Assembly (NCBI RefSeq): GCF_015163655.1
Contig: NZ_JADEUF010000032.1
Location: 1 to 35,398, forward strand
Direction of reading: 5' to 3'
Origin: Xenorhabdus griffiniae
GTDB taxonomy: Bacteria > Pseudomonadota > Gammaproteobacteria > Enterobacterales > Enterobacteriaceae
DNA: 35,398 nucleotides
Part shown: in pieces, positions 9,168-19,438 of the stretch
Numbering within the stretch: the first letter of the stretch is position 1
Layout: each line of letters starts with the position of its first letter
Notes under the pieces: generated by a model
Told to the model about the DNA's origin: nothing
Database searches by the model: none
Seen by the model: only the letters and a program-made list of their open reading frames with translations
Translations under genes and position numbers: made by a program

Positions 9168-9271
9168 TTGCTGTTGGTTGACGACATACCCGCTAACCGA
9201 TTAATCTAGAGTGCATTGCAAGTTAAGGTAGACTATATTCACTCACTGCTTTGTTGATAAGGATTGAGGCT

Positions 9272-10153
9272 ATGCTATCAAATATTCAAGCTGCCCCTAA
9301 GTTTATCCGGCAATATAAACATGCTACTAGTGAATTAAACTTTATTTACAATGTATCAACTGAATGGCACCAACATCCCTGTATTCAACTCAGTCTATCT
9401 TTACATAGTCATGAATTGCTCACCTTATCAATACAGGATAAGATTCATTCCTCTCATGGTTTTCTTATTCGTTCAAATGTGATGCATAAGCTAGATTCAT
9501 CCAATACTTGTAGCATTACATTGCTCATTGAACCGATCGATGAGCACTACCATTTATTTAGCCATCTCACGGAGGATCTGGCAGTTATTTCGCTGGGGTA
9601 TGATGACATTGTGGCTGTAACGGATTATCTCATTAAGTCGTTTCTTTGTGGCGAAAAACCTGACACATTTACTATTTACTTGTTACTTAGCCCATATCTG
9701 CCATGCCATTGTCAGTTTGATAAACGTATTTTAAAAGCGGTTACGTTTATCGAATCGCTATCCGTAAAGCGGATTTCATCCCGCCAGGTCGCTGATAAAA
9801 TTTACCTTTCTGAAAGCCGTTTTTTACATCTTTTTCGCGATCAAGTGGGAATTAATTTCCGCGCTTACTTGCTATGGTTACGTTTAAGTGATGCTATTGA
9901 AGAAATTTATATGACCGATTCTTTAACATTGGTTGCTAATAACTGCGGTTTTTCTGATACAGCTCATTTTAGTCGGACATGCAAAATGGCATATGGAATA
10001 CGCCCTTCTGACCTTAAACATATAATCCAACAAAATCTACAGTTCGACTGTAACACTGCGCAATGCCGCTATAACATCAATAAACAAGCAATACATAATA
10101 TTGCTGAGAGACAAAACCATCATGAAAAAGAAGCCAATCCCCGAATCATTTAG
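9272..10153 (+). CDS. AraC-family transcriptional regulator
   Basis: A 293-residue regulator. The N-terminal half (about 1-140) is a cupin-like sensory domain with an EWHQHPCIQLSL segment. The C-terminal half carries two helix-turn-helix motifs at about 169-190 (SSRQVADKIYLSESRFLHLF) and 218-239 (LTLVANNCGFSDTAHFSRTC), then GIRPSDLK, typical of AraC/XylS proteins. The ATG at 9272 follows GGATTGAGG and is preferred over an upstream TTG. Its 3' end overlaps the convergent emrB-like gene by 8 bases. That neighbourhood suggests it controls the pump or the divergent acyl/sulfur operon. The ligand is unknown. Confidence 0.88.
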   Translation: MLSNIQAAPKFIRQYKHATSELNFIYNVSTEWHQHPCIQLSLSLHSHELLTLSIQDKIHSSHGFLIRSNVMHKLDSSNTCSITLLIEPIDEHYHLFSHLTEDLAVISLGYDDIVAVTDYLIKSFLCGEKPDTFTIYLLLSPYLPCHCQFDKRILKAVTFIESLSVKRISSRQVADKIYLSESRFLHLFRDQVGINFRAYLLWLRLSDAIEEIYMTDSLTLVANNCGFSDTAHFSRTCKMAYGIRPSDLKHIIQQNLQFDCNTAQCRYNINKQAIHNIAERQNHHEKEANPRII

Positions 10154-11654
10154 GTGATAAATTCGATCTGGACAACCAAAGAATCAAAATGAGTGCCAGA
10201 AAAATAAAACCAAAGAGCCAGAAAATTTCGTTAGCTGCCAGAATTAAACTCTGGTTAGTAATTTTCTTCGCGAGAAAAATAGTTGCCTGTAGGTCAGACA
10301 ATCCCAGCAGCCTGATATCTTGATAAGCTAAATCAACAAGGACGTTATTTTGTGTGATGTTTTCAGTGAGCTGAGAATGGTGAACAGCCTCACGGCGCGA
10401 CCACAATGTATTGGTTAACGATGTACCTATCGATATCGCCAGGGTTCGAAAGAAGTTAAACAAGCTGCCTGCCGAAGCGATCTTTTCCTGAGGGATATCA
10501 GATAAAATAATCATGTTGAGTGGCATAATAAAACAGGCAATCGCTATTCCCTGTACAAACTGTGGCCATGCTGCGCTGGAAAAATCCATCCCAGACTCAA
10601 AAGTATGCGCCCGCCAAAAAAAGCAGAAAGAGAAGACAATAAAGCTAAGGGTGACTAAATAGCGCATATCAATTTTGGCACCAAAGCGGCCAATAACCGG
10701 GGCCAGAAAAATGGGAAGGATGCCCAGAGGCGCTAATGCAAACCCTGCCCAAGTAGCGGTGTAACCAAAAACTGTCTGTAGTAACTGGGGTTGTAAGACT
10801 AAGACACCAATGTGCAATAGAAATGCCAAACTGATACAAATCGTGCCTACCGTAAAGTTACGAGATTTAAACAGGGATAAATCAACAATCGGGTTATCAT
10901 CAGTCAGTTCCCAAATGACAAACAGGATGATACCTATCGTGGCAATGATAGCCAGTGCGATGATCTCATTGGAATTAAACCAATCTAGCTCCTTCCCTCT
11001 GTCTAACATCAGTTGTAAGCAGCCAACACCGACAACGAGTAGAACCAAGCCCACTGTATCAACCGGAATAATTTCAGTTTTGGTTTCGCGCTTATTTAAC
11101 AGTAAATAAGTAATAAAAATAGCGACCAAACCAATGGGAACGTTGATTAAGAAAATCCATCCCCAGTGGACGTTATCACTAATCCATCCACCGAGGATAG
11201 GCCCACAAACTGGGGCTATAATGACGGTCATAGACCAAATGGCCAAAGCCATACTGTGTTGAGACTTAGGAAAATTTGCCAGCAACAAACTTTGTGATAA
11301 GGGGATGATAGGGCCTGAAACCGCGCCTTGTATAATTCGGGTAATAATGAGCATTTCAAGGCTATTGGAGATGCCACATAACCAAGAAGAAATAATGAAA
11401 AGCACGGTCGAAATGACAAACAGTCGCACTTCCCCCACGCGTTTTGCCAACCAACCCGTCAAAGGGATAGAGATCGCATTAGCAACACCAAATGACGTGA
11501 TAACCCAAGTGCCTTGTGACACAGATGATCCAAGATCACCGGCAATGGTTGACAATGCTACGTTAGCAATCGTCAAATCCAAAATTTGCAGAAAAGCGAT
11601 AATCGCCAGGGACAGGATTAACCACCAGCGCTGGCTGACTGATAAAAGTTCCAT
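10146..11654 (-). CDS. emrB: EmrB-type multidrug efflux transporter (MFS, DHA2)
   Basis: A 502-residue proton-driven transporter of the DHA2 (14-helix) major facilitator family. Characteristic segments are LDLTIANVALSTIAGDLG, SQGTWVITSFGVANAISIPL, LTGWLAKRVGEVRLF, APVCGPILGGWISD (motif C) and LTDDNPIVDLSLFKSRNFTV, all near those of E. coli EmrB. An in-frame ATG 24 bases earlier overlaps the emrA-like gene, but AAGGA lies upstream of the ATG chosen here. With the upstream emrA-like gene it should form a tripartite system with a TolC-type outer-membrane channel that exports hydrophobic compounds. There is no emrR nearby; an AraC-type gene sits on the other side. It may export the product of the divergent operon. 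Confidence 0.9.
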   Translation of the reverse strand: MELLSVSQRWWLILSLAIIAFLQILDLTIANVALSTIAGDLGSSVSQGTWVITSFGVANAISIPLTGWLAKRVGEVRLFVISTVLFIISSWLCGISNSLEMLIITRIIQGAVSGPIIPLSQSLLLANFPKSQHSMALAIWSMTVIIAPVCGPILGGWISDNVHWGWIFLINVPIGLVAIFITYLLLNKRETKTEIIPVDTVGLVLLVVGVGCLQLMLDRGKELDWFNSNEIIALAIIATIGIILFVIWELTDDNPIVDLSLFKSRNFTVGTICISLAFLLHIGVLVLQPQLLQTVFGYTATWAGFALAPLGILPIFLAPVIGRFGAKIDMRYLVTLSFIVFSFCFFWRAHTFESGMDFSSAAWPQFVQGIAIACFIMPLNMIILSDIPQEKIASAGSLFNFFRTLAISIGTSLTNTLWSRREAVHHSQLTENITQNNVLVDLAYQDIRLLGLSDLQATIFLAKKITNQSLILAANEIFWLFGFIFLALILILWLSRSNLSPK

Positions 11655-11667
11655 AGCTGTGTGATCC

Positions 11668-12855
11668 TTAATTTTCATGACTGGTATTGCTTTTTATGAT
11701 TTGTTCAATAATTTCATCTATTTCTTTATTATCGAATGAGAGCACATCAGTCTGATAAATAATCCGTTGCGGAGTTTTGTTAGCCAGAGTTGTACCTTCT
11801 GTTTTTCTCGTATCAACAGTTGCATGCATTGATAAACCGATTCGTAATGGGTTAAGGGCAATTTGCTCCCGATCTAATTCAATACGTACAGGGAGGCGCT
11901 GTACCACTTTAATCCAGTTACCTGTCGCGTTCTGAGCGGGGAGGATAGAGAAAGCGCTGCCAGTTCCCATATCCATACCCGTAATCCGTCCCTGATAAGC
12001 CACACTATCACCATAAAAATCACTGATTAATTTGACGGGTTGCCCCAGACGCATATTAGTAAACTGTACTTCCTTAAAATTCGCTTCAACCCATAATTGG
12101 TCAGAAGGGACAATTATCATCAAGGGCGTAGATTGATTGATTTGGGCGCCGACCTGAACACTACGACGTGATACATACCCACTGACTGGCGCGTAAATTT
12201 TAGTACGTTGCAGGGACAACCAAGTTTCACGTAAATTGGATACCGCCTTTTCTATATTGGGCAGCTTCTCTAGCGGTGTTCCCATAATCAAAGCCTGATT
12301 AATCTTATACTGCTGTATAGCGACTTTTAAATCTGCTTTGGCAATATCAACAGCCTTACGAGCGTGATCCAGCTCTTCAACAGCAATGACATTGACCTTT
12401 CCTAATTTTTCCCGCCTTGCCAGATCACTTTTTAACTTGTCTAAAGTCAGCTGTTTTAATTCCACATTAGCCTGAAGCTTGGGGTTACTCAGGATAGTTT
12501 CTTGTGTTTCACGCACGGCTTGGGCTAACGCATGTTTACTCTTCCCGAAAGCATTTTCAGCATCAGCACTATCCAACGTTAACAGAAGGTCGCCTTGTTG
12601 AACGAAATCGGTGTTATCAACATAAATATTTTTTACGCTGCCATGGGTTTGTGACATAACTTGAATTTGATTACCGACAACATAAGCATTATCTGTTGAT
12701 TGGTAGAAACGCAATACCATGTACCAATAAAGTAGGTAAGCTGCACCGGAGAACAAAAAAAATAATACAACAACAGAAAGTATTATTTTTCGCTTTTTAT
12801 TATTTTTTGCTCCTTGTAGTGGCTCAGGCATAGTTTCAACTTTATTATTTCCCAT
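11668..12855 (-). CDS. emrA: EmrA-type membrane fusion protein (HlyD family)
   Basis: A 395-residue periplasmic adaptor of the EmrA/HlyD family. One membrane anchor spans about residues 24-47. The first barrel-sandwich half follows (TDNAYVVGNQIQVMSQTHGS...VKNIYVDNTDFVQQGDLLL), then a coiled-coil hairpin at about 100-225, the second lipoyl half (IYAPVSGYVSRRSVQVGAQI) and a beta-barrel with QLWVEANFKEVQFTNMRLGQ. GGAG precedes the start. It is the first gene of an emrAB pair and links the MFS pump to an outer-membrane channel not encoded here. It is divergent from the operon beginning at 13391 and shares its 535-base upstream region. Confidence 0.9.
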   Translation of the reverse strand: MGNNKVETMPEPLQGAKNNKKRKIILSVVVLFFLFSGAAYLLYWYMVLRFYQSTDNAYVVGNQIQVMSQTHGSVKNIYVDNTDFVQQGDLLLTLDSADAENAFGKSKHALAQAVRETQETILSNPKLQANVELKQLTLDKLKSDLARREKLGKVNVIAVEELDHARKAVDIAKADLKVAIQQYKINQALIMGTPLEKLPNIEKAVSNLRETWLSLQRTKIYAPVSGYVSRRSVQVGAQINQSTPLMIIVPSDQLWVEANFKEVQFTNMRLGQPVKLISDFYGDSVAYQGRITGMDMGTGSAFSILPAQNATGNWIKVVQRLPVRIELDREQIALNPLRIGLSMHATVDTRKTEGTTLANKTPQRIIYQTDVLSFDNKEIDEIIEQIIKSNTSHEN

Positions 12856-13390
12856 GTTCGACTCCGATTAATTAAATTAATAAGCATATTCAAAATTTAT
12901 ACTGATATGCTACCGCCAGGCATCCCTATTTTTCATATGACTTGCATAGAATGAATTCCATACTTAGGTGTTATGCCCGCTAATACCTTGAAGGTACACG
13001 GTATCTTCATTTTATAACTTAATAACATGATTGGATTGAATAATCTGGCTGATGTGGAAGTGATGGAATGTTAAGTGAAATTTATGCAATAATGGCAAGG
13101 CAGGTAAGGAATGTATGTGAGTGATTTACAAAGTAAATAAAAATAGCCAGTTTATTCAAGCAAAATAAAAACACGATAGTTAAATTTGCTTTGGCAAAAA
13201 GTGCTTACACGAATTGCTTATATATCAATCCAACTTCAAGTTGCAGCTTGCAATCAATGTGATTGTTTATCTCTCCCCGCGTAGCGGGAAGAGATAAGAA
13301 GCATCTGGAAAGGCGATTGGTATACATATGATCTGCACAACTGCCGGAAAGCAATTAAAAAAATATATAATAACTATTAGGATAGATTAC
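12856..13390. promoter_or_regulatory. Divergent control region of emrAB-like and acyl/sulfur operons
   Basis: These 535 bases lie between two divergent transcription units. I see no open frame of note. The region contains a full repeat copy at 13219-13325. The repeat end forms TTGGTATACAT, an extended -10-like element (TGN at 13318-13320, TATACA at 13321-13326), about 65 bases before the first gene of the rightward operon. AGGA at 13379-13382 is the ribosome-binding site for that gene. Binding sites of the AraC-type regulator would be expected here but cannot be recognised. Confidence 0.45.
13219..13325. repeat. Dispersed palindromic repeat, divergent full copy
   Basis: The copy has the same architecture as those at 251 and 5968 but a different spacer: TATATATCAATCCAACTTCA first, then GCAGCTTGCAATCAATGTGA, a hairpin with CTCTCCCCGC-GTA-GCGGGAAGAG and GGCGATTGGTATA last. 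Compared with the copy at 34631 it is inverted and shares the same spacer type (CAATCACATTGATT on the other strand). It lies 66 bases upstream of the acyl/sulfur operon start. Confidence 0.8.
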
Positions 13391-14572
13391 ATGTTCAAAT
13401 CGACTGAGCTGTATGAAAAAATAAAAGAAGTCAATGGTGACGCTATAAAATGGTTAATTACAAGTAGTAACTTTTTTTATAGTCTCTCAACTGAAGAACA
13501 ACAAGAATTAAAAACCCATGTTATTAGAGATGCCTTTAAATACCATTTTGAAAATAATGCTTACTACCGTGAACAATGTGAAAAGAAAGGGGTAAAACCC
13601 AGTGATATTCAAAATTACACAGATTTAGTCAATATCCCAGTTATTCCTGTATCCACATTCAAATCTGCAAATAGCCATCGTCTTTTGAGTAAACCTCTTT
13701 CCAGCATTGAGCATGAAATGCGTTCGACAGGTACTAGTGGGATCCCGAGTGTTGCCCGTCGATGTGATGAAACAATGGACTATACTACCATAGGTCTTTA
13801 TAACTCATTTCGTGACATGCTTAAACTCTCCAGTGGCGCGGGACTTTGTTTATGTCCTTCCACAGAGGAAATTCCTGAAATGGGAATGATCAAAGCATTT
13901 AATTGGTTGGCTGGGTTGCTGGATACAAATTGCTTTATGGTTAAGGAAGAGCGTTTTGTCCCAGAAGAAGCTGTCAGTCAATTAAACGAGTGGCAAGGAA
14001 AATTTACCCGCCATCTGATAGGGCCTCCATTCCTTATTCATCGCTTTATCAGTTTCTTAAAAGCGACAAATACTAAGTTGGAACTGGATAGCGGAAGTAT
14101 GATCATTACACTTGGTGGTTGGAAGCGTTTCACTGGTGCCATGATCTCCCGTACCGAGTTTAATCAGGAGCTGGAAACTTGGTTAGGTATTCCAGCTAAT
14201 CAGGTTCGTGATATGTACGGACTGGTCGAAGCCAACTTTTTGGCGATAGAGGATGAGTTTAACCAAAAACATATACCGCCTTATATTCATTTCTCTGTTC
14301 GTGATCCGGAAAATTTATCCCGAGAAGTGGCTGATGGTGAAACCGGTCAGCTTGTTATTTTTGATCCCATAGCACGCTCAACACCGGGCATGTTGTTGAC
14401 TGAAGACATGATTTACCTGCGCACTGATCGTGATCCATCAGGGCGTAACTCGCAACGTATGCAATATGTTATGCGGGCGCCTTCTGCAACGGAATTCGGC
14501 TGCTGTGCTGTTAATCTGGAAAGTAAAATGTCTGCTGATGAACAAAGGGATGTATGCCCTGTTACTCAGTGA
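13391..14572 (+). CDS. LuxE-like acyl-protein synthetase (acyl-adenylating enzyme)
   Basis: A 393-residue member of the LuxE / acyl-protein synthetase family (ANL-related). Family marks are the nucleotide-binding loop RSTGTSGIPSVARR (111-124), LGGWKRF (241-247), RDMYGLVEANFLAIEDE (273-289), a conserved HIPPYIHFSVRD segment, and a C-terminal GCC motif (Cys371/372) near the place where LuxE carries its acyl-accepting cysteine. LuxE activates a fatty acid as acyl-AMP and holds it as a thioester for the LuxC reductase. No luxC, luxA or luxB is present, so the acyl group probably goes elsewhere. I chose the ATG at 13391 because AGGA is 8 bases upstream; a longer frame begins at 13328. It is the first gene of a six-gene operon, 9 bases before the next. 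Confidence 0.85.
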   Translation: MFKSTELYEKIKEVNGDAIKWLITSSNFFYSLSTEEQQELKTHVIRDAFKYHFENNAYYREQCEKKGVKPSDIQNYTDLVNIPVIPVSTFKSANSHRLLSKPLSSIEHEMRSTGTSGIPSVARRCDETMDYTTIGLYNSFRDMLKLSSGAGLCLCPSTEEIPEMGMIKAFNWLAGLLDTNCFMVKEERFVPEEAVSQLNEWQGKFTRHLIGPPFLIHRFISFLKATNTKLELDSGSMIITLGGWKRFTGAMISRTEFNQELETWLGIPANQVRDMYGLVEANFLAIEDEFNQKHIPPYIHFSVRDPENLSREVADGETGQLVIFDPIARSTPGMLLTEDMIYLRTDRDPSGRNSQRMQYVMRAPSATEFGCCAVNLESKMSADEQRDVCPVTQ

Positions 14573-14581
14573 GGTCTAATC

Positions 14582-14938
14582 ATGTTTAATGAAATTATCA
14601 CTGATAACTTCTGTAATCCTGATTTTCAGGGCAGCCTGACAAATCCTGATATTCAGTTGAAGTTGGGTAACCCTGTGTGTGGGGATACAGTGAATATTGA
14701 TTTGTCCTTGAGTGAAGAAGGGCGCATCAGTGCGGCCCGTTTTCAAGCTTGGGGATGTACGACTTCTTTAGCCATGTCTAACCAGTTTTGTCGCCAAGTT
14801 CAGGGAAGAACTCTGGCAGAGATCGCCCAATTAAGCACACAAGAGATCGACAGCATGTTGGGTAAGCTGCAACCTTCACAGCAGCATTGTCTGGAAATGT
14901 TGCACGCTCTTTTTCAGCAGGTAAGGGAGCATATATGA
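14582..14938 (+). CDS. IscU/NifU-N-like Fe-S or sulfur scaffold
   Basis: A 118-residue protein of the IscU/SufU/NifU N-terminal family. The three scaffold cysteines are present with the usual spacing: Cys33 in NPVCGD, Cys59 in WGCTTSLAMS and Cys103 in QHCLEML, plus Asp35 after the first. It is shorter than IscU (128) and divergent in sequence, and I do not see the LPPVK motif by which IscU is handed to the HscA chaperone. It may therefore serve one local partner rather than general cluster assembly. It could accept sulfur from the next gene's desulfurase or build a cluster for an enzyme outside the locus. ATGA overlap with the desulfurase gene indicates translational coupling. Confidence 0.88.
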   Translation: MFNEIITDNFCNPDFQGSLTNPDIQLKLGNPVCGDTVNIDLSLSEEGRISAARFQAWGCTTSLAMSNQFCRQVQGRTLAEIAQLSTQEIDSMLGKLQPSQQHCLEMLHALFQQVREHI

Positions 14939-16116
14939 CAATGTTGTACTTTGATTTCAATGCGACAACGCCACTGAGTCATAAGACAAAGACGGCAATT
15001 CAGGGCGTGTTGGATCAATTTGCCAATCCTTCCGGCAGATATCGTTTAAGCCAAAATCTGGTGACGTTGATTCATCAGGCAAAAGAGTCAATCGCTCAAT
15101 TAGTGGGAGGTTCGCCAGAAAGGATCATTTTTACTTCTGGGGGGACAGAGAGCAATAATCTGGCTTTGCACAGTGTATTCAGCCAGCTTCCGGTTGGTCA
15201 ATTGTCACGTTATCACGCCATCTGCTCCGCAATTGAACACTCTTCAATTCTGGAACCTCTGCGTTGGTACCAAGCGCAAGGCTTAAAGCTTACTGTCATT
15301 GAGCCGAGTAAAACAGGAAGAGTTGATCTGGACACCTTATGTCGTGCTATCACACCTCAAACGTGTTTCATCGCATTGATGGTAATCAACAATGAAACTG
15401 GCGTTATTCAACCTTACGATCAGCTTGCTTCCTGGCTGAAAGGAAAAGGTATCCATCTTCATCTCGATGCCATACAAGCGGTAGGAAAATGGCCGATAAG
15501 CCGTTTTGATGATATTCCACTAACTATTTCCTTTTCCGGGCATAAATTTTATGCCCCTAAAGGGGTGGGTGGGTTGTATTACAGCCAGCAAGTGAAAATC
15601 AATCCCTTACTACATGGAGGTGGGCAGGAACACGGCTTACGTAGTGGTACAGAAAACACATTAGGAATAGCCGGATTAGCGGCTGCCGCAAAAGAAGCTT
15701 ATGAAGAATTGGTTCAACGCATTGATTACTGCCGTGAAATGAGAACGTACCTGCTTACTCAATTAGATAAGTTGGGTGTGAATTATCACGTAAATGGTGA
15801 GACCAATCCTGAATATCAGGCTCCATGGACATTAAATGTCAGTTTCCCTGGTATTAGGGCGGAAGCGTTAGCAAGCCGATTGGATTTATGCCACGGTATT
15901 TCTGTTTCTCTGGGGTCTGCTTGTAGCAATAACGCTCATTCACCTCAGCGTTCACATGTTTTACTTGCGATGCAATCTCCTCATGACTATATCGATAGTG
16001 CATTGCGGATCAGCTTTGGACATGTTACCGAGCGGCATGAAGTGAGTGTCTTGGCTAATGCCTTACAACAGGAAACACGGCATTTATTGGCCATTGCAGG
16101 AGAACAAAAAAGATGA
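14935..16116 (+). CDS. IscS/NifS-like cysteine desulfurase
   Basis: A 393-residue PLP enzyme that converts cysteine to alanine and a protein-bound persulfide. The PLP-binding Lys204 is in SFSGHKFYAPKGVGG. The persulfide cysteine Cys330 is in VSLGSACSNNAHSPQRSHVL, matching the mobile-loop cysteine of group I (NifS/IscS) enzymes. Further family motifs are FTSGGTESNNLAL, ALMVINNETGVIQP and HLDAIQAVGKW. Its length is close to IscS (404). The ATG at 14935 follows AAGGGAG and overlaps the previous stop. The longer frame from 14887 would overlap the previous gene by 52 bases. It lies between a scaffold gene and acyl-activating genes, so its sulfur probably serves this pathway. Confidence 0.93.
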   Translation: MTMLYFDFNATTPLSHKTKTAIQGVLDQFANPSGRYRLSQNLVTLIHQAKESIAQLVGGSPERIIFTSGGTESNNLALHSVFSQLPVGQLSRYHAICSAIEHSSILEPLRWYQAQGLKLTVIEPSKTGRVDLDTLCRAITPQTCFIALMVINNETGVIQPYDQLASWLKGKGIHLHLDAIQAVGKWPISRFDDIPLTISFSGHKFYAPKGVGGLYYSQQVKINPLLHGGGQEHGLRSGTENTLGIAGLAAAAKEAYEELVQRIDYCREMRTYLLTQLDKLGVNYHVNGETNPEYQAPWTLNVSFPGIRAEALASRLDLCHGISVSLGSACSNNAHSPQRSHVLLAMQSPHDYIDSALRISFGHVTERHEVSVLANALQQETRHLLAIAGEQKR

Positions 16117-17816
16117 TGTTGGAGCATGCTCAAACACTATTATGCTGTTTTAAACATTATGCTTCACAGCAGCCAAATCAAATTGTATATCGCTTTTTAC
16201 CTTCAGGAGATTCAGAGACGGTTACCCTGACTTGGCAAGAATTGGAACAACGTTCCCATCAACTTGCTTGTGCCCTCGTTGCTGGAGGACAACAAGGGAA
16301 AACGGTTATTCTGATGTACCCTGCTGGTCTGGAGTTTATTGTCGGATTATTAGCCTGTTTTAAAGCGGGGGCTATTGCTGTTCCATCCAATGTCGTTCGG
16401 GGAAGTCGCCATCTACAAAGGTTAACTCAGATCTTGAATGACTCAGAAGCGAAAGTGATTTTGACCACCTCAGAGTTAAGCAGGGTTTTATCAAATGAAT
16501 TTCCTGATCTGGGGATCATGTATTACTCGGAAAATCAGCCGGTAGATGAAAGCACGGAACTTCCCTCAATCAGTCCGGGACAATTGGCTTTCCTACAATA
16601 TACCTCTGGTTCCACCGATATTCCTAAAGGAGTGATGGTCACTCACGATAACTTAATCCATAACTTGCGGGCAATGAATAATACTTTTGGCTTGCATGAA
16701 GGGTTAGTCATTGGAGGCTGGATACCTCAGTTTCATGATATGGGGTTGGTAGGACATATTTTAATGACCATGGCACTCGGTGGACAATATAACTTCATGT
16801 CACCCTTGTCATTTATCCAGCGGCCATTACGTTGGTTACAGTTGATGCATGATTATAAAGCAGAATTCTGTTGTGCCCCTAATTTTGCTTACGACCTATG
16901 TGCTGACCAAGATTGCTCTGGACTTAATCTGGATCTGTCCCGCTGGCGTTGGGTGGGGAATGGTGCCGAGCCAGTCAGAAATGAAACGTTGATGCGTTTT
17001 TATCAGGCTGTTAAGGAATATGGATTTATTTATCAAAGCCAAATCCCCTGTTACGGTATGGCTGAAGCAACACTGGTAATCAGTTCATCCACAAGTGAGG
17101 ATCTGCCACTGAGTTTCACGCTGTGCAGCGACAGTCTGGAAAAAGGGAAATTGGCCTTAAAACCTGGTGGGATTGCCATGCAAGCTTGTGGTCAAGTTGC
17201 ACCTGATCACCGAGTCGTGATTGTTAACCCCGACACAAAAGTATTGTGTGAGCCTGATGAAATCGGTGAGATCTGGGTGCAGGGACCAAGTATTGCCATA
17301 GGATATTGGAATAATCCGCAACAGACTCAAGAGAACTTCATGGCCTATACGACCACTGGAGAAGGACCTTTTCTCCGTACTGGTGATCTTGGTTGTCTGT
17401 ACCAACACCACTTGTTGATCACCGGCCGTTTGAAGGATTTGATTATTATCCGAGGGCGGAATATCTATCCACAGGACATTGAGTACACGGCTACTATGCA
17501 ATCCACAGCCTTTCGTCCAGGAAAAGCAATTGCATTTGAACTTGGCCAGCGGGTTGTTGTCGCCATCGAGCTGCAAAAAAATGTGGAACAAGAACACAAT
17601 TTCAGAGAATTGAGACGAAATGTAATTCAGGCACTCAATGCAGCGTTCGATATCGATATCGATATCGCTGACTTAGTGTTTATTCAAGCTAATAAATTGC
17701 CTACAACTAGCAGTGGAAAAGTACAACGAAAACTCTGCCGTTCGCTTTACTTGCAAGGCAAATTACAGTTAGCCAATGTGTTGTCTACCACCGAAACTCA
17801 AGGAGCATTAATATGA
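16113..17816 (+). CDS. Fatty acyl-AMP ligase (FAAL-type adenylating enzyme)
   Basis: A 567-residue ANL-superfamily acyl adenylate ligase. Core motifs are YTSGSTDIPKGVMVTHDN (163-180), GGWIPQFHDMGLVGHILMTM (201-220, a hallmark of FAAL and loading-type ligases), CYGMAEATLVIS (313-324), LRTGDLG (421-427), RLKDLIIIRGRNIYPQDIE (439-457) and catalytic-type Lys536 in SSGKVQRK. These enzymes activate fatty acids with ATP and hand them to an acyl carrier protein instead of CoA. The ACP gene directly follows (ATGA overlap at 17813), so that is the likely acceptor. A GATATC tandem run at 17648-17667 encodes an Asp-Ile repeat near residue 513. The start overlaps the desulfurase stop. Confidence 0.92.
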   Translation: MMLEHAQTLLCCFKHYASQQPNQIVYRFLPSGDSETVTLTWQELEQRSHQLACALVAGGQQGKTVILMYPAGLEFIVGLLACFKAGAIAVPSNVVRGSRHLQRLTQILNDSEAKVILTTSELSRVLSNEFPDLGIMYYSENQPVDESTELPSISPGQLAFLQYTSGSTDIPKGVMVTHDNLIHNLRAMNNTFGLHEGLVIGGWIPQFHDMGLVGHILMTMALGGQYNFMSPLSFIQRPLRWLQLMHDYKAEFCCAPNFAYDLCADQDCSGLNLDLSRWRWVGNGAEPVRNETLMRFYQAVKEYGFIYQSQIPCYGMAEATLVISSSTSEDLPLSFTLCSDSLEKGKLALKPGGIAMQACGQVAPDHRVVIVNPDTKVLCEPDEIGEIWVQGPSIAIGYWNNPQQTQENFMAYTTTGEGPFLRTGDLGCLYQHHLLITGRLKDLIIIRGRNIYPQDIEYTATMQSTAFRPGKAIAFELGQRVVVAIELQKNVEQEHNFRELRRNVIQALNAAFDIDIDIADLVFIQANKLPTTSSGKVQRKLCRSLYLQGKLQLANVLSTTETQGALI

Positions 17817-18058
17817 CCGAGCTGGAATTAAAAGGCTGGCTGATTGAATATTTGACACCTTATTTCCAACGCCATGATATTCCTATCGGTGAACACGTTT
17901 CTTTCGATAGCCTTGGCTTGGATTCTGCAAGCAGGGTAACACTGATTAGTCAGTTAGAAAAAACATTACAGCGAAAATTGGATCCTATTCTTGGCTATGA
18001 ATACCCCACTATCCACGCTCTGGCTGAACATATATTGCAATTGGAGCCGACGCCATGA
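17813..18058 (+). CDS. Acyl carrier protein
   Basis: An 81-residue carrier protein. FDSLGLDSASRVTLISQLE (31-49) contains the phosphopantetheine-attachment serine (Ser38) in GLDSA. The DSxGLDSA context is typical of ACPs paired with fatty acyl-AMP ligases or polyketide-type systems. It overlaps the ligase gene by ATGA and the next gene by another ATGA, so the products are probably made in fixed ratio. It should carry the activated acyl group while the flavoprotein or the sulfur-transfer pair acts on it. That is inference. No phosphopantetheinyl transferase gene is in the window. Confidence 0.93.
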   Translation: MTELELKGWLIEYLTPYFQRHDIPIGEHVSFDSLGLDSASRVTLISQLEKTLQRKLDPILGYEYPTIHALAEHILQLEPTP

Positions 18059-19117
18059 AAATCGATTGCTTAATCGTTGGTGCAGGGCAAGCGGGGCTAA
18101 CACTGGCTGTTACCCTTAACAAAAAAAATTAACACATTGATTCTGGAGCGAGACCAGCGTATTGGTGATGTTTGGCGTCGGCGCCCTGACAATATGTTGT
18201 TATTTACTTCCCGTATGATGAGCCAGCTGCCTGATTTTCCTTTGGCAGGTTCTCCTGATGGCTATCCGGGTAAGGATGAGATAGCGGATTATCTGGAACG
18301 TTACGCGCATCATCATAATCTACATGTATTGACGGGCATGCAGGTGATCAGTGTAAAACATCAAGATGGGGTGTTTACTCTGACCACGCAAAAAGGGGAG
18401 CAGTTTTCTGCTCCTTGTTTAGTTAATGCCACTGGTGCTAACCAAGTACCAATTATCCCTGAGATGGCGAGCGATTTATCTCCTTCTGTCCAGCAACTGA
18501 CGGCTGATCGTTATCAGAACCCCGAGCAATTTCAGGCGGGGTCACGGATTGCTGTCATAGGTGATGGCGCCAGTGGCCGACAGATAGCACAAGAACTTTC
18601 TTCCACGATGAAGGTGACATTATTCTGTGGTTCCCCTCGCCCGCTTGTACCCAATCGGGTTATGGGTAAGGATTTGTTCTGGCTGCATAAGTCAAGGATA
18701 TTGTATGCAAATACATCGAGCCTGGTCGGTAAAATAGTACAACGACGTAATCCACTTCCATGTGGTGAGCTTAATAACCAGCGTTTGTCTGCGCTTAATG
18801 TACAGATAGCGCCAAAATTAGTAAGGGCTGAAAACGAAACATTGTATGACCAACAAGGTAAAAAATATCGCATTGATGGATTGATTTGGTGTGTAGGGTA
18901 TAAGGAAGTCACGGATTGGTTAACCTTGCCTGGCGTTAGCAATTCGCAAGGTTTTATCTGCGAAAGTGGTCATATTAATGGAGGAAAAACAGCTTATCCG
19001 GGGTTATTTATTGTAGGCAGAAAATGGCTCAGTAGCCGTAGTTCTGAATTATTACTTGGCGCAGCCAGAGATGCACAACGGGTCGCACAGTGGGTAGAAC
19101 AAAAGCTGAAGTCTTAA
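18055..19117 (+). pseudogene. FAD-dependent oxidoreductase, frameshifted in an A8 run
   Basis: The region encodes a flavin-dependent monooxygenase/oxidoreductase (CzcO/FMO-like). The ATG at 18055 overlaps the ACP stop and begins MKIDCLIVGAGQAGLTLA, the FAD-binding GxGxxG. That frame stops after 25 codons at 18130. Removing one A from the run 18121-18128 joins it to the downstream frame (ILERDQRIGDVWRRRPDNML...), giving about 353 residues. The second part has an NADPH-type Rossmann motif, IAVIGDGASGRQIAQEL, and IDGLIWCVGYKEVTDWL. A TTG-started product from 18137 would lack the FAD site. The break may be a sequencing error, a real mutation, phase variation, or a site rescued by transcriptional slippage. 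It is the last gene of the operon. Confidence 0.8.
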
Positions 19118-19158
19118 ACGCTTATTAGAAGGGACTTTTCTACAAGGTAATTATAGCG

Positions 19159-19185
19159 ATAAGGCAGGGAGTTCCTTATTTTTTT
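19159..19185 (+). terminator. Terminator of the acyl/sulfur operon
   Basis: A short stem ATAAGG / CCTTAT (19159-19164 with 19174-19179) is followed directly by six T residues. It lies 42 bases after the flavoprotein stop and overlaps the very end of convergent feoC. The stem is short, so efficiency is uncertain. Confidence 0.5.
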
Positions 19186-19415
19186 ACGGTAAGCTGATAG
19201 GCTTTAGTATCACATTTTTGTGTTTCCGGGCACTGCTTGCAGCCCCCGCTGAGGCAGGAGGAAGCATCCACTTCCTCCAGTTTACCCATTATGACAAGCT
19301 GCTTGAGCATGGCTTCCACCATTGGCAGCGGTGCTGAAAACTGATGGCTCAATGACCTGGCATCGGTACGCCCGTTGAGGGCAACAGCATCTCTGATTTT
19401 CAGCAGGTTAATCAT
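19176..19415 (-). CDS. feoC: Ferrous iron transport protein FeoC
   Basis: A 79-residue winged-helix protein, the third gene of feoABC. The C-terminal cysteine cluster CLSGGCKQCPETQKC, which can bind an Fe-S cluster, matches FeoC of E. coli (78 residues). The N-terminal part MINLLKIRDAVALNGRTDAR is a small winged helix. FeoC is thought to protect FeoB from proteolysis or to regulate it. GAGGAA precedes the start, and the gene lies 23 bases after feoB. It marks the right border of the accessory island. Confidence 0.93.
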   Translation of the reverse strand: MINLLKIRDAVALNGRTDARSLSHQFSAPLPMVEAMLKQLVIMGKLEEVDASSCLSGGCKQCPETQKCDTKAYQLTVKK

Positions 19416-19438
19416 TTATGGTTCCTCAATGGTTCCGA

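Follow-up and report, generated by a model that had tools for sequence, protein, structure and literature searches.

What would be made by an operon in which an acyl-activating enzyme of the bioluminescence type precedes two proteins of the kind that assemble iron-sulfur (Fe-S) clusters? The question is raised by a locus of Xenorhabdus griffiniae (assembly GCF_015163655.1, contig NZ_JADEUF010000032.1), of which the whole 35,398-nucleotide stretch analysed is called the window. Six genes there encode, in order, a LuxE-like acyl-adenylating enzyme, an IscU-like protein, an IscS-like cysteine desulfurase, a fatty acyl-AMP ligase (FAAL), an acyl carrier protein (ACP) and a flavoprotein (Table 1). 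A preliminary description of the operon proposed that sulfur from cysteine is placed on an acyl chain and then oxidised. This is still the best-supported chemistry, and we infer the product and chemistry of the pathway along the same lines: there is about an even chance that the locus directs the biosynthesis of an exported, sulfur-bearing acyl metabolite, a thiocarboxylate or a derivative of one, which is then oxidised.

Open reading frames and family matches, assigned with Pfam and NCBIfam profiles (eight window proteins were scanned with Pfam), confirm all six genes where the preliminary description had placed them. The coupling of five genes by four-base ATGA overlaps was likewise located, at 14935-14938, 16113-16116, 17813-17816 and 18055-18058, and a gap of 9 bases separates the luxE-like and iscU-like genes. 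The operon is not a chance assembly, since the same six families recur in other lineages. Within Xenorhabdus, a cluster-type IscU (E<=1e-60) is found in 9 of 30 genomes, and all nine loci (the window, L057 in genome G009 of the same species, and seven corresponding to L003-L009) carry the six families in one order, as does the distant gammaproteobacterium G106. A plasmid collection, by which alone the Bacillota were represented beside the genome samples, contributed 14 Priestia records with LuxE at 48-49% and, in the same 14, IscU at 38-39%. The order FAAL-flavoprotein-ACP-LuxE-IscU-IscS was found in all four of these neighbourhoods that were read, with the FAAL gene split in one record and the LuxE gene in another. 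IscU- and IscS-like genes thus stand together with FAAL and ACP genes in Xenorhabdus, in G106 and, reordered, in Priestia, and the proposal that one pathway is encoded, made at first from translational coupling, is strongly supported by this conservation of the set across phyla and through rearrangement.

The six-gene unit as first described holds for LuxE, IscU, IscS and the flavoprotein, which are constant, but not for the FAAL, which lies outside the core. The FAAL variant is that of Xenorhabdus, G106 and Priestia. In the Photorhabdus-like genus g657 and the family f207, LuxE-IscU-IscS and the flavoprotein are retained, but the genes after IscS are instead those of a FabF-like ketosynthase (KS), a MaoC-like protein and a FabG-like reductase. 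The MaoC-like match is weak at locus L055 (24.1 of 27 bits), and searches of the KS-variant loci at E limits from 1e-3 to 1e-8 gave no match to the FAAL. An ACP gene is present at every locus where one was sought (the gap behind IscS at L075-L077 lay outside that check), with KS-variant frames between IscS and the downstream genes at L055, L059 and L093. The f207 locus L059 also has, between emrB and araC, a gene for a phosphopantetheinyl transferase (18709-19422), as a pathway that depends on an ACP would lead one to expect. For the window's ligase, fatty-acid--AMP ligase models are among the best NCBIfam matches (397 of 775 bits at the cut-off), and the best 25 of its 106 matches all fall below their cut-offs.

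Judged by gene order, LuxE-IscU-IscS is the functional core, for which the acyl supply would be interchangeable: all complete loci read have these three genes side by side in one order (the split Priestia LuxE apart), whereas the flavoprotein and acyl-supply genes change place. The three proteins diverge in parallel over seven loci, as judged by pairwise identity (r=0.93, 0.97 and 0.96; 21 non-independent pairs). In trees of 13 (IscU) and 11 (IscS) rows, which are limited by long branches and few outgroups, a single branch (97/92 for IscU and 98/96 for IscS) separates the cluster proteins from the sampled housekeeping and Nif proteins.

The LuxE-like protein belongs to the LuxE superfamily but not to the lux family, since it meets PF04443 and scores 160 bits against the cut-off of 550 of the curated LuxE model NF052244. 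By sequence, its closest solved chain is the LuxE 7xc6_E. Aligned with that chain, the GTSG nucleotide loop and a C-terminal cysteine of the acyl-accepting type are present in 7 of 7 representatives from five lineages. The C-terminal motif reads GCC(A)(V/I) at all seven loci (the truncated L054 is left out of the count), and the second cysteine of GCC aligns in HMMER with the single cysteine of 7xc6_E, which we take to be the residue that carries the acyl group in LuxE. Three lux LuxE proteins read KGCALS, with one cysteine where the cluster LuxE has a vicinal pair. The LuxE-LuxC fatty acid reductase and other pairs of LuxE with an acyl-CoA reductase are thus alike in Pfam family, GTSG loop and C-terminal cysteine, but differ in the extra cysteine and in the gene that follows. 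In the non-lux LuxE-family plasmid loci read, the next gene encodes a LuxC-type acyl-CoA reductase (3 of 3), whereas here no LuxC follows and IscU-IscS occupy its position. Neither LuxC nor another acyl-CoA reductase was found in the window operon or is annotated on the four Priestia plasmids, and none was recognised at the other loci, where only part of the genes was scanned. Read most simply, the presence of IscU-IscS in the place of the LuxC-type reductase would mean that LuxE passes its acyl group to a sulfur nucleophile, giving a thiocarboxylate.

The cluster IscU retains its CGD, GC and HC residues, and at 7 of 7 loci the position of the LPPVK motif reads L(Q/E/S)P(S/A)Q; the window's protein has LQPSQQHC where the housekeeping IscU has LPPVKIHC. 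LPPVK is the HscA-binding motif of E. coli IscU, and archaeal IscU has been argued to work probably without HscA (PMC7585200; this and the other papers are cited from excerpts of their text). The loss of the motif therefore speaks against the HscA route, but not against every Fe-S role. In the window, the IscS-like protein has the pyridoxal phosphate-binding lysine in SGHK and the catalytic loop SLGSAC. This catalytic-cysteine loop, of the IscS/NifS class, reads SLGSAC, SIGSAC or SIASAC at all seven loci, and the window protein scores 308 bits with the NifS model, below the cut-off of 530.75. X. anantnagensis carries, downstream of the operon and between the flavoprotein gene and feoC, another IscS-like gene (32% identical; L007, 11237-12370).

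It is quite unlikely that this pair builds an Fe-S cluster for a dedicated enzyme, with the acyl genes serving a separate function in the operon. The retained ligand residues (CGD, C and HC) would suit such a role, and nif clusters do hold a dedicated NifU/NifS beside their client. No conserved Fe-S client was recognised beside the present pair in the lineages read, however, and LPPVK is gone throughout. IscA, HscA, HscB and ferredoxin were not found in the window operon or among the scanned window genes, nor are they annotated on the four Priestia plasmids read, and the same genome as the window already has housekeeping iscS-iscU genes with IscA- and HscB-like genes behind them. Unlike the ISC and NIF assembly systems, with which it shares both families and their catalytic residues, the pair stands behind LuxE in every complete locus, and LuxE-IscU-IscS stays contiguous as other genes swap. 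The alternative offered by the preliminary description, a cluster for an enzyme encoded elsewhere, is weakened by the same loss of LPPVK and by the lack of a recognised client or ISC helper beside the genes. As far as sequence can tell, an IscU lacking LPPVK and a LuxE with a vicinal cysteine favour sulfur transfer over Fe-S assembly.

The biosynthesis of a sulfur-bearing acyl metabolite, the preferred reading, would take six steps, whose order we infer as follows. An acyl chain would be loaded or built on the ACP. The LuxE-like enzyme would adenylate the carboxylate and then, in the manner of LuxE, bind the acyl group through its C-terminal cysteine C372. IscS would then draw persulfide sulfur from cysteine and hand it over to the IscU-like protein, acting as a carrier and not as an HscA-served scaffold. 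The persulfide, perhaps via the vicinal LuxE cysteine C371, whose role is conjecture, would displace the acyl group to give a thiocarboxylate and not the aldehyde of the LuxC route. Finally, the sulfur or the chain would be oxidised by the flavoprotein, and the product exported by EmrAB under the control of an AraC-type protein.

Carboxylate activation followed by sulfur transfer is also the scheme of the thioacid cassettes PtmA3/PtmU4 (thioplatensimycin), QbsL/QbsK, OrfJ/OrfI and YtkG/YtkF. In the first of these, the carboxylate is activated as a CoA ester and a type III CoA-transferase moves sulfur from a ThiS-like carrier, and the ptm product is a FabF-directed antibiotic (PMC6006322). In place of that acyl-CoA synthetase, CoA-transferase and ThiS-like carrier, the present locus has a LuxE-type synthetase, an IscU-type carrier and its own IscS; a two-domain type III CoA-transferase has no Pfam match among the eight window proteins or the ten proteins from other loci that were scanned. 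A paulomycin-type (isothiocyanate) route was rejected, since the desulfurase there is accompanied by a ThiF-like protein (PMC4425429). It is very improbable that sulfur serves only as a transient nucleophile, the IscU persulfide or the LuxE cysteine freeing the acyl group from the ACP so that the product (an acid, aldehyde or lipid) is itself sulfur-free. LuxE relatives form aldehydes through a thioester, and the presence of both LuxE and FAAL suggests repeated activation of one chain, but a desulfurase that spends one cysteine per turn would be a costly means of thioester hydrolysis.

The oxidation in the proposed pathway would fall to the flavoprotein. The preliminary description saw the key residues of all the products apart from a frameshift in this one; the catalytic residues are indeed present, and the break is found in this copy only. 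The frame ends at a stop (18130-18132) after an A run and continues in another frame (Table 1), whereas the gene is one intact frame of 345-363 amino acids at 14 of 14 other loci, including that of the same-species genome G009 (three similar Priestia plasmids are among the 14), and of 361 amino acids at the four Photorhabdus-like loci read. The break is therefore peculiar to this copy and not to the system, and is likely an assembly error or a strain-specific mutation; programmed frameshifting was set aside because the other 14 copies are single open frames. The window frame scores 133 bits with an ArsO-like model, short of the cut-off of 425. By sequence, the intact flavoprotein of L003 is closest, among solved structures, to the SMFMO-type flavin monooxygenases (FMOs) 4usr, 4usq, 4c5o and 4a9w, which we take to be thioether oxidisers. 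Those enzymes presumably stand alone, unlike the cluster enzyme, which is tied to sulfur genes.

A flavoprotein acting on an ACP-bound chain would also allow sulfur to enter the carbon chain itself, giving a thiolactone or thiotetronate-like product for which LuxE activates the acyl group for ring closure or release; this is rather unlikely. In the biosynthesis of thiotetronate antibiotics (thiolactomycin/Tu 3010), sulfur reaches a polyketide chain by way of a NifS-like desulfurase and a thiouridylase-like transferase (PMC5518548), a similar arrangement except that the desulfurase gene lies at a separate locus there and within the operon here. In the KS variant, a functionalised chain could be assembled on the ACP, and EmrAB-TolC confers resistance to thiolactomycin and cerulenin in E. 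coli (PMC8277102). The FAAL variant, on the other hand, would deliver ready-made fatty acids, and the loci read yielded no recognisable gene for a polyketide synthase-nonribosomal peptide synthetase (PKS-NRPS), a thiouridylase-like protein or a P450: PKS-NRPS and P450 families have no Pfam match among the eight window and ten other-locus proteins, and no frame of PKS-NRPS size is listed. As far as seen, the present locus resembles the thioacid and thiotetronate routes in outline, and of their sulfur-transfer enzymes it has only a desulfurase of the same broad family.

For the preferred thiocarboxylate pathway, export is suggested by three further genes that the preliminary description had overlooked. 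On the evidence of gene neighbourhoods, the locus includes emrA, emrB and araC in three lineages. Of 30 Xenorhabdus genomes, 12 encode an EmrA of the operon type (80-100% identical); each of the 9 operon carriers is among them and, as a comparison of positions shows, has this gene next to the operon. A second EmrA, 51-57% identical, occurs in 28 of the 30 and is probably the housekeeping copy. The araC gene lies beside emrB in the seven of the nine carriers that were checked (the window, G022, G001, G025, G011, G026 and G014), and in G011 and G025 the operon is inverted relative to emrAB with the linkage retained. In g657 and f207, emrA and emrB come after FabG and an araC gene is also at the locus. 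Photorhabdus-like and f207 loci have, next to the operon, a gene 68-74% identical to the window's emrB, whose product scores 791 bits with the EmrB model NF000391, below the cut-off of 925. Relatives of the AraC-type protein (42-50% identical), which is likely the regulator of the locus, occur at the Photorhabdus-like loci L075-L077 and L093 and at the f207 locus L055, and partly at L059. A short intergenic repeat lies upstream of luxE in the window (13218-13325), and a similar copy is found elsewhere, in L062 (5535-5628).

Table 1. Features of the locus in the window, with the match or model on which each assignment is based.
Feature	Position	Strand	Basis
LuxE-like acyl-adenylating enzyme / acyl-protein synthetase	13391-14572	+	PF04443, E 1.5e-40
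IscU-like sulfur carrier / scaffold without LPPVK	14582-14938	+	PF01592, E 2.7e-22
IscS/NifS-like cysteine desulfurase	14935-16116	+	PF00266, E 3.2e-59
FAAL-type ligase (acyl supply, variant 1)	16113-17816	+	PF00501, E 8.2e-67
ACP	17813-18058	+	PF00550, E 1.7e-10
Flavoprotein, 5' piece to premature stop	18055-18132	+	sequence; intact elsewhere
Flavoprotein (FMO-like), remaining open frame	18137-19117	+	Pyr_redox_3, FMO-like
EmrA-type adaptor	11668-12855	-	EmrA model 579 bits, cut-off 563
EmrB-type exporter of the major facilitator superfamily	10146-11678	-	passes TIGR00711 (586 of 230 bits)
AraC-type regulator, convergent with emrB	9251-10153	+	HTH_18, E 5.9e-17

Three Xenorhabdus genomes, G017, G003 and G024 (the last 82% complete), have emrAB-araC without the operon. 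In G017, a decayed luxE-like gene start lies beside emrAB-araC, and the interval from emrA to feoC, which holds the operon in other Xenorhabdus, contains a complete gene for a FabF-type ketosynthase (L062, 10684-11958). With 520.6 bits against a cut-off of 493.75, its product qualifies as a FabF and is of foreign type: identity is 47-48% with the Xenorhabdus FabF proteins compared but reaches 70% with FabF from rhizobia and elsewhere, and the other 29 Xenorhabdus genomes lack it (E<=1e-140). The gene is possibly a target duplication. A pump kept without the pathway would fit protection against an inhibitory product. Thiolactomycin and cerulenin, the two compounds to which EmrAB-TolC confers resistance, are both ketosynthase inhibitors. 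Genes for beta-ketoacyl-ACP synthases (KAS) are found in each of the thiotetronate clusters, where they are proposed to provide self-resistance (PMC5518548). It is nevertheless decidedly improbable that the product is an antibiotic of a new class, a sulfur-bearing acyl compound directed against FabF, with the thiocarboxylate formed by a LuxE-type synthetase and an IscU-type sulfur donor. This reading is drawn from the fixed position of EmrAB beside the genes in the Xenorhabdus carriers and in both KS-variant lineages, and from G017, with a foreign FabF in the gap and the pump kept without the operon, the FabF part being a single case.

The wider distribution was followed with a LuxE profile. 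Matches numbered 3 of 369 genomes in the class sample (the window's own genome, G106 and G224; E<=1e-30), 1 of 398 in the phylum sample (own; E<=1e-60), 5 of 343 in the family sample (own, G022 and three g657 genomes) and 6 of 295 in the order sample, of which three were own, G022 and G537 and the other three resemble lux operons. Cluster-type LuxE is present in 12 of 12 genomes of g657, of which four neighbourhoods were read and one copy has an internal stop; each of the 12 has a second, weaker LuxE match at 144-158 bits, presumably lux. In f207, LuxE is found in 2 of 44 genomes, both loci being read, and in the order of G106 in 1 of 4. The cluster-type LuxE of G224 (467 bits; L054, 34-10848) is cut at its 3' end by what is by eye a transposase-like frame, and G224 was therefore set aside as a test of linkage. 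Relaxase-like and coupling-protein-like frames, also recognised by eye, are found on its contig, and together with this LuxE the conjugation-like frames suggest that the cluster moves on mobile elements. The Priestia cluster is framed by AhpD/CMD-family and DinB-family genes in 4 of 4 records (L041, 5268-5600 and 11631-12101); both families include thiol-linked enzymes. Several candidates were rejected: L010, from a metagenome-assembled genome of the Pseudomonadales, is a false match inside a chemoreceptor-like frame and was dropped from the counts; next to the IscU of a Planctomyces plasmid (H16), neither LuxE nor FAAL is annotated; the three lux-like matches of the order sample, G439, G508 and G613 (159-169 bits), are lux operons, with neighbours that by eye are of the luciferase and flavin-reductase types; and H59 is a plasmid with luxA and luxB. 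No relative was found in the viral contigs searched.

Several points weigh against the biosynthesis of an exported sulfur-bearing metabolite. No product or enzyme activity is known for the locus, and its members are rare in broad genome samples. With all its cluster ligands kept, the cluster IscU may yet carry an Fe-S cluster, and in some NifU proteins the LPPVK site is likewise taken by other motifs (LPPQKMHC and LPKQKMHC). FAAL and LuxE are two acid-activating enzymes, which is one activation beyond what the simple model needs. Relatives of the flavoprotein also perform N- and C-oxidations. EmrAB is not universal, since the neighbouring transporter differs in Priestia, where a TetR gene and a YhgE/Pip-family gene are found, and in G106, where the locus has an MMPL transporter. 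The FabF hint comes from one genome, and G003 and G024 keep the pump without the operon and without this FabF.

One protein of the KS variant appears to have been seen. In Photorhabdus luminescens LN2, plu4676 (similar to KAS II, 45407.3 Da, pI 5.58) is a spot on two-dimensional gels, with ratios to the wild type of 3.29, 3.0, 0.01 and <0.01 in four rifampicin-resistant mutants; its level was raised about 3-fold in R2 and R16, and R31 and R33 showed a drop of about 100-fold (PMC3422287, Table 3). For the cluster KS of G1361, the calculated values are 45436.1 Da and pI 5.58, so that the pI equals and the mass nearly equals that of plu4676, and a count of genes from rep, plu4667 (PMC4706420), also arrives at plu4676. 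The level of plu4676 does not track nematicidal activity, which of these four mutants only R16 kept, and the cluster itself was not a subject of that study in its excerpted text (PMC3422287). This table row is the sole mention of the cluster found in the open-access literature searched, where no title or abstract opening among the papers listed describes it.

The six-gene set occurs in insect-associated bacteria, on plasmids of soil bacteria and in few other bacteria, and its product is probably an exported sulfur-bearing fatty compound, so far undescribed. If the proposed pathway is true, it would add a route to acyl sulfur in which proteins of the Fe-S assembly type act as a relay and a synthetase of the bioluminescence type as acceptor; should the product also be an antibiotic against FabF, the locus would provide a further enzymatic route to thioacids. 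It would also mean that much-studied nematode symbionts export an undescribed product, which should be findable because LuxE is present in 12 of 12 Photorhabdus-like genomes and the KS appears on protein gels.

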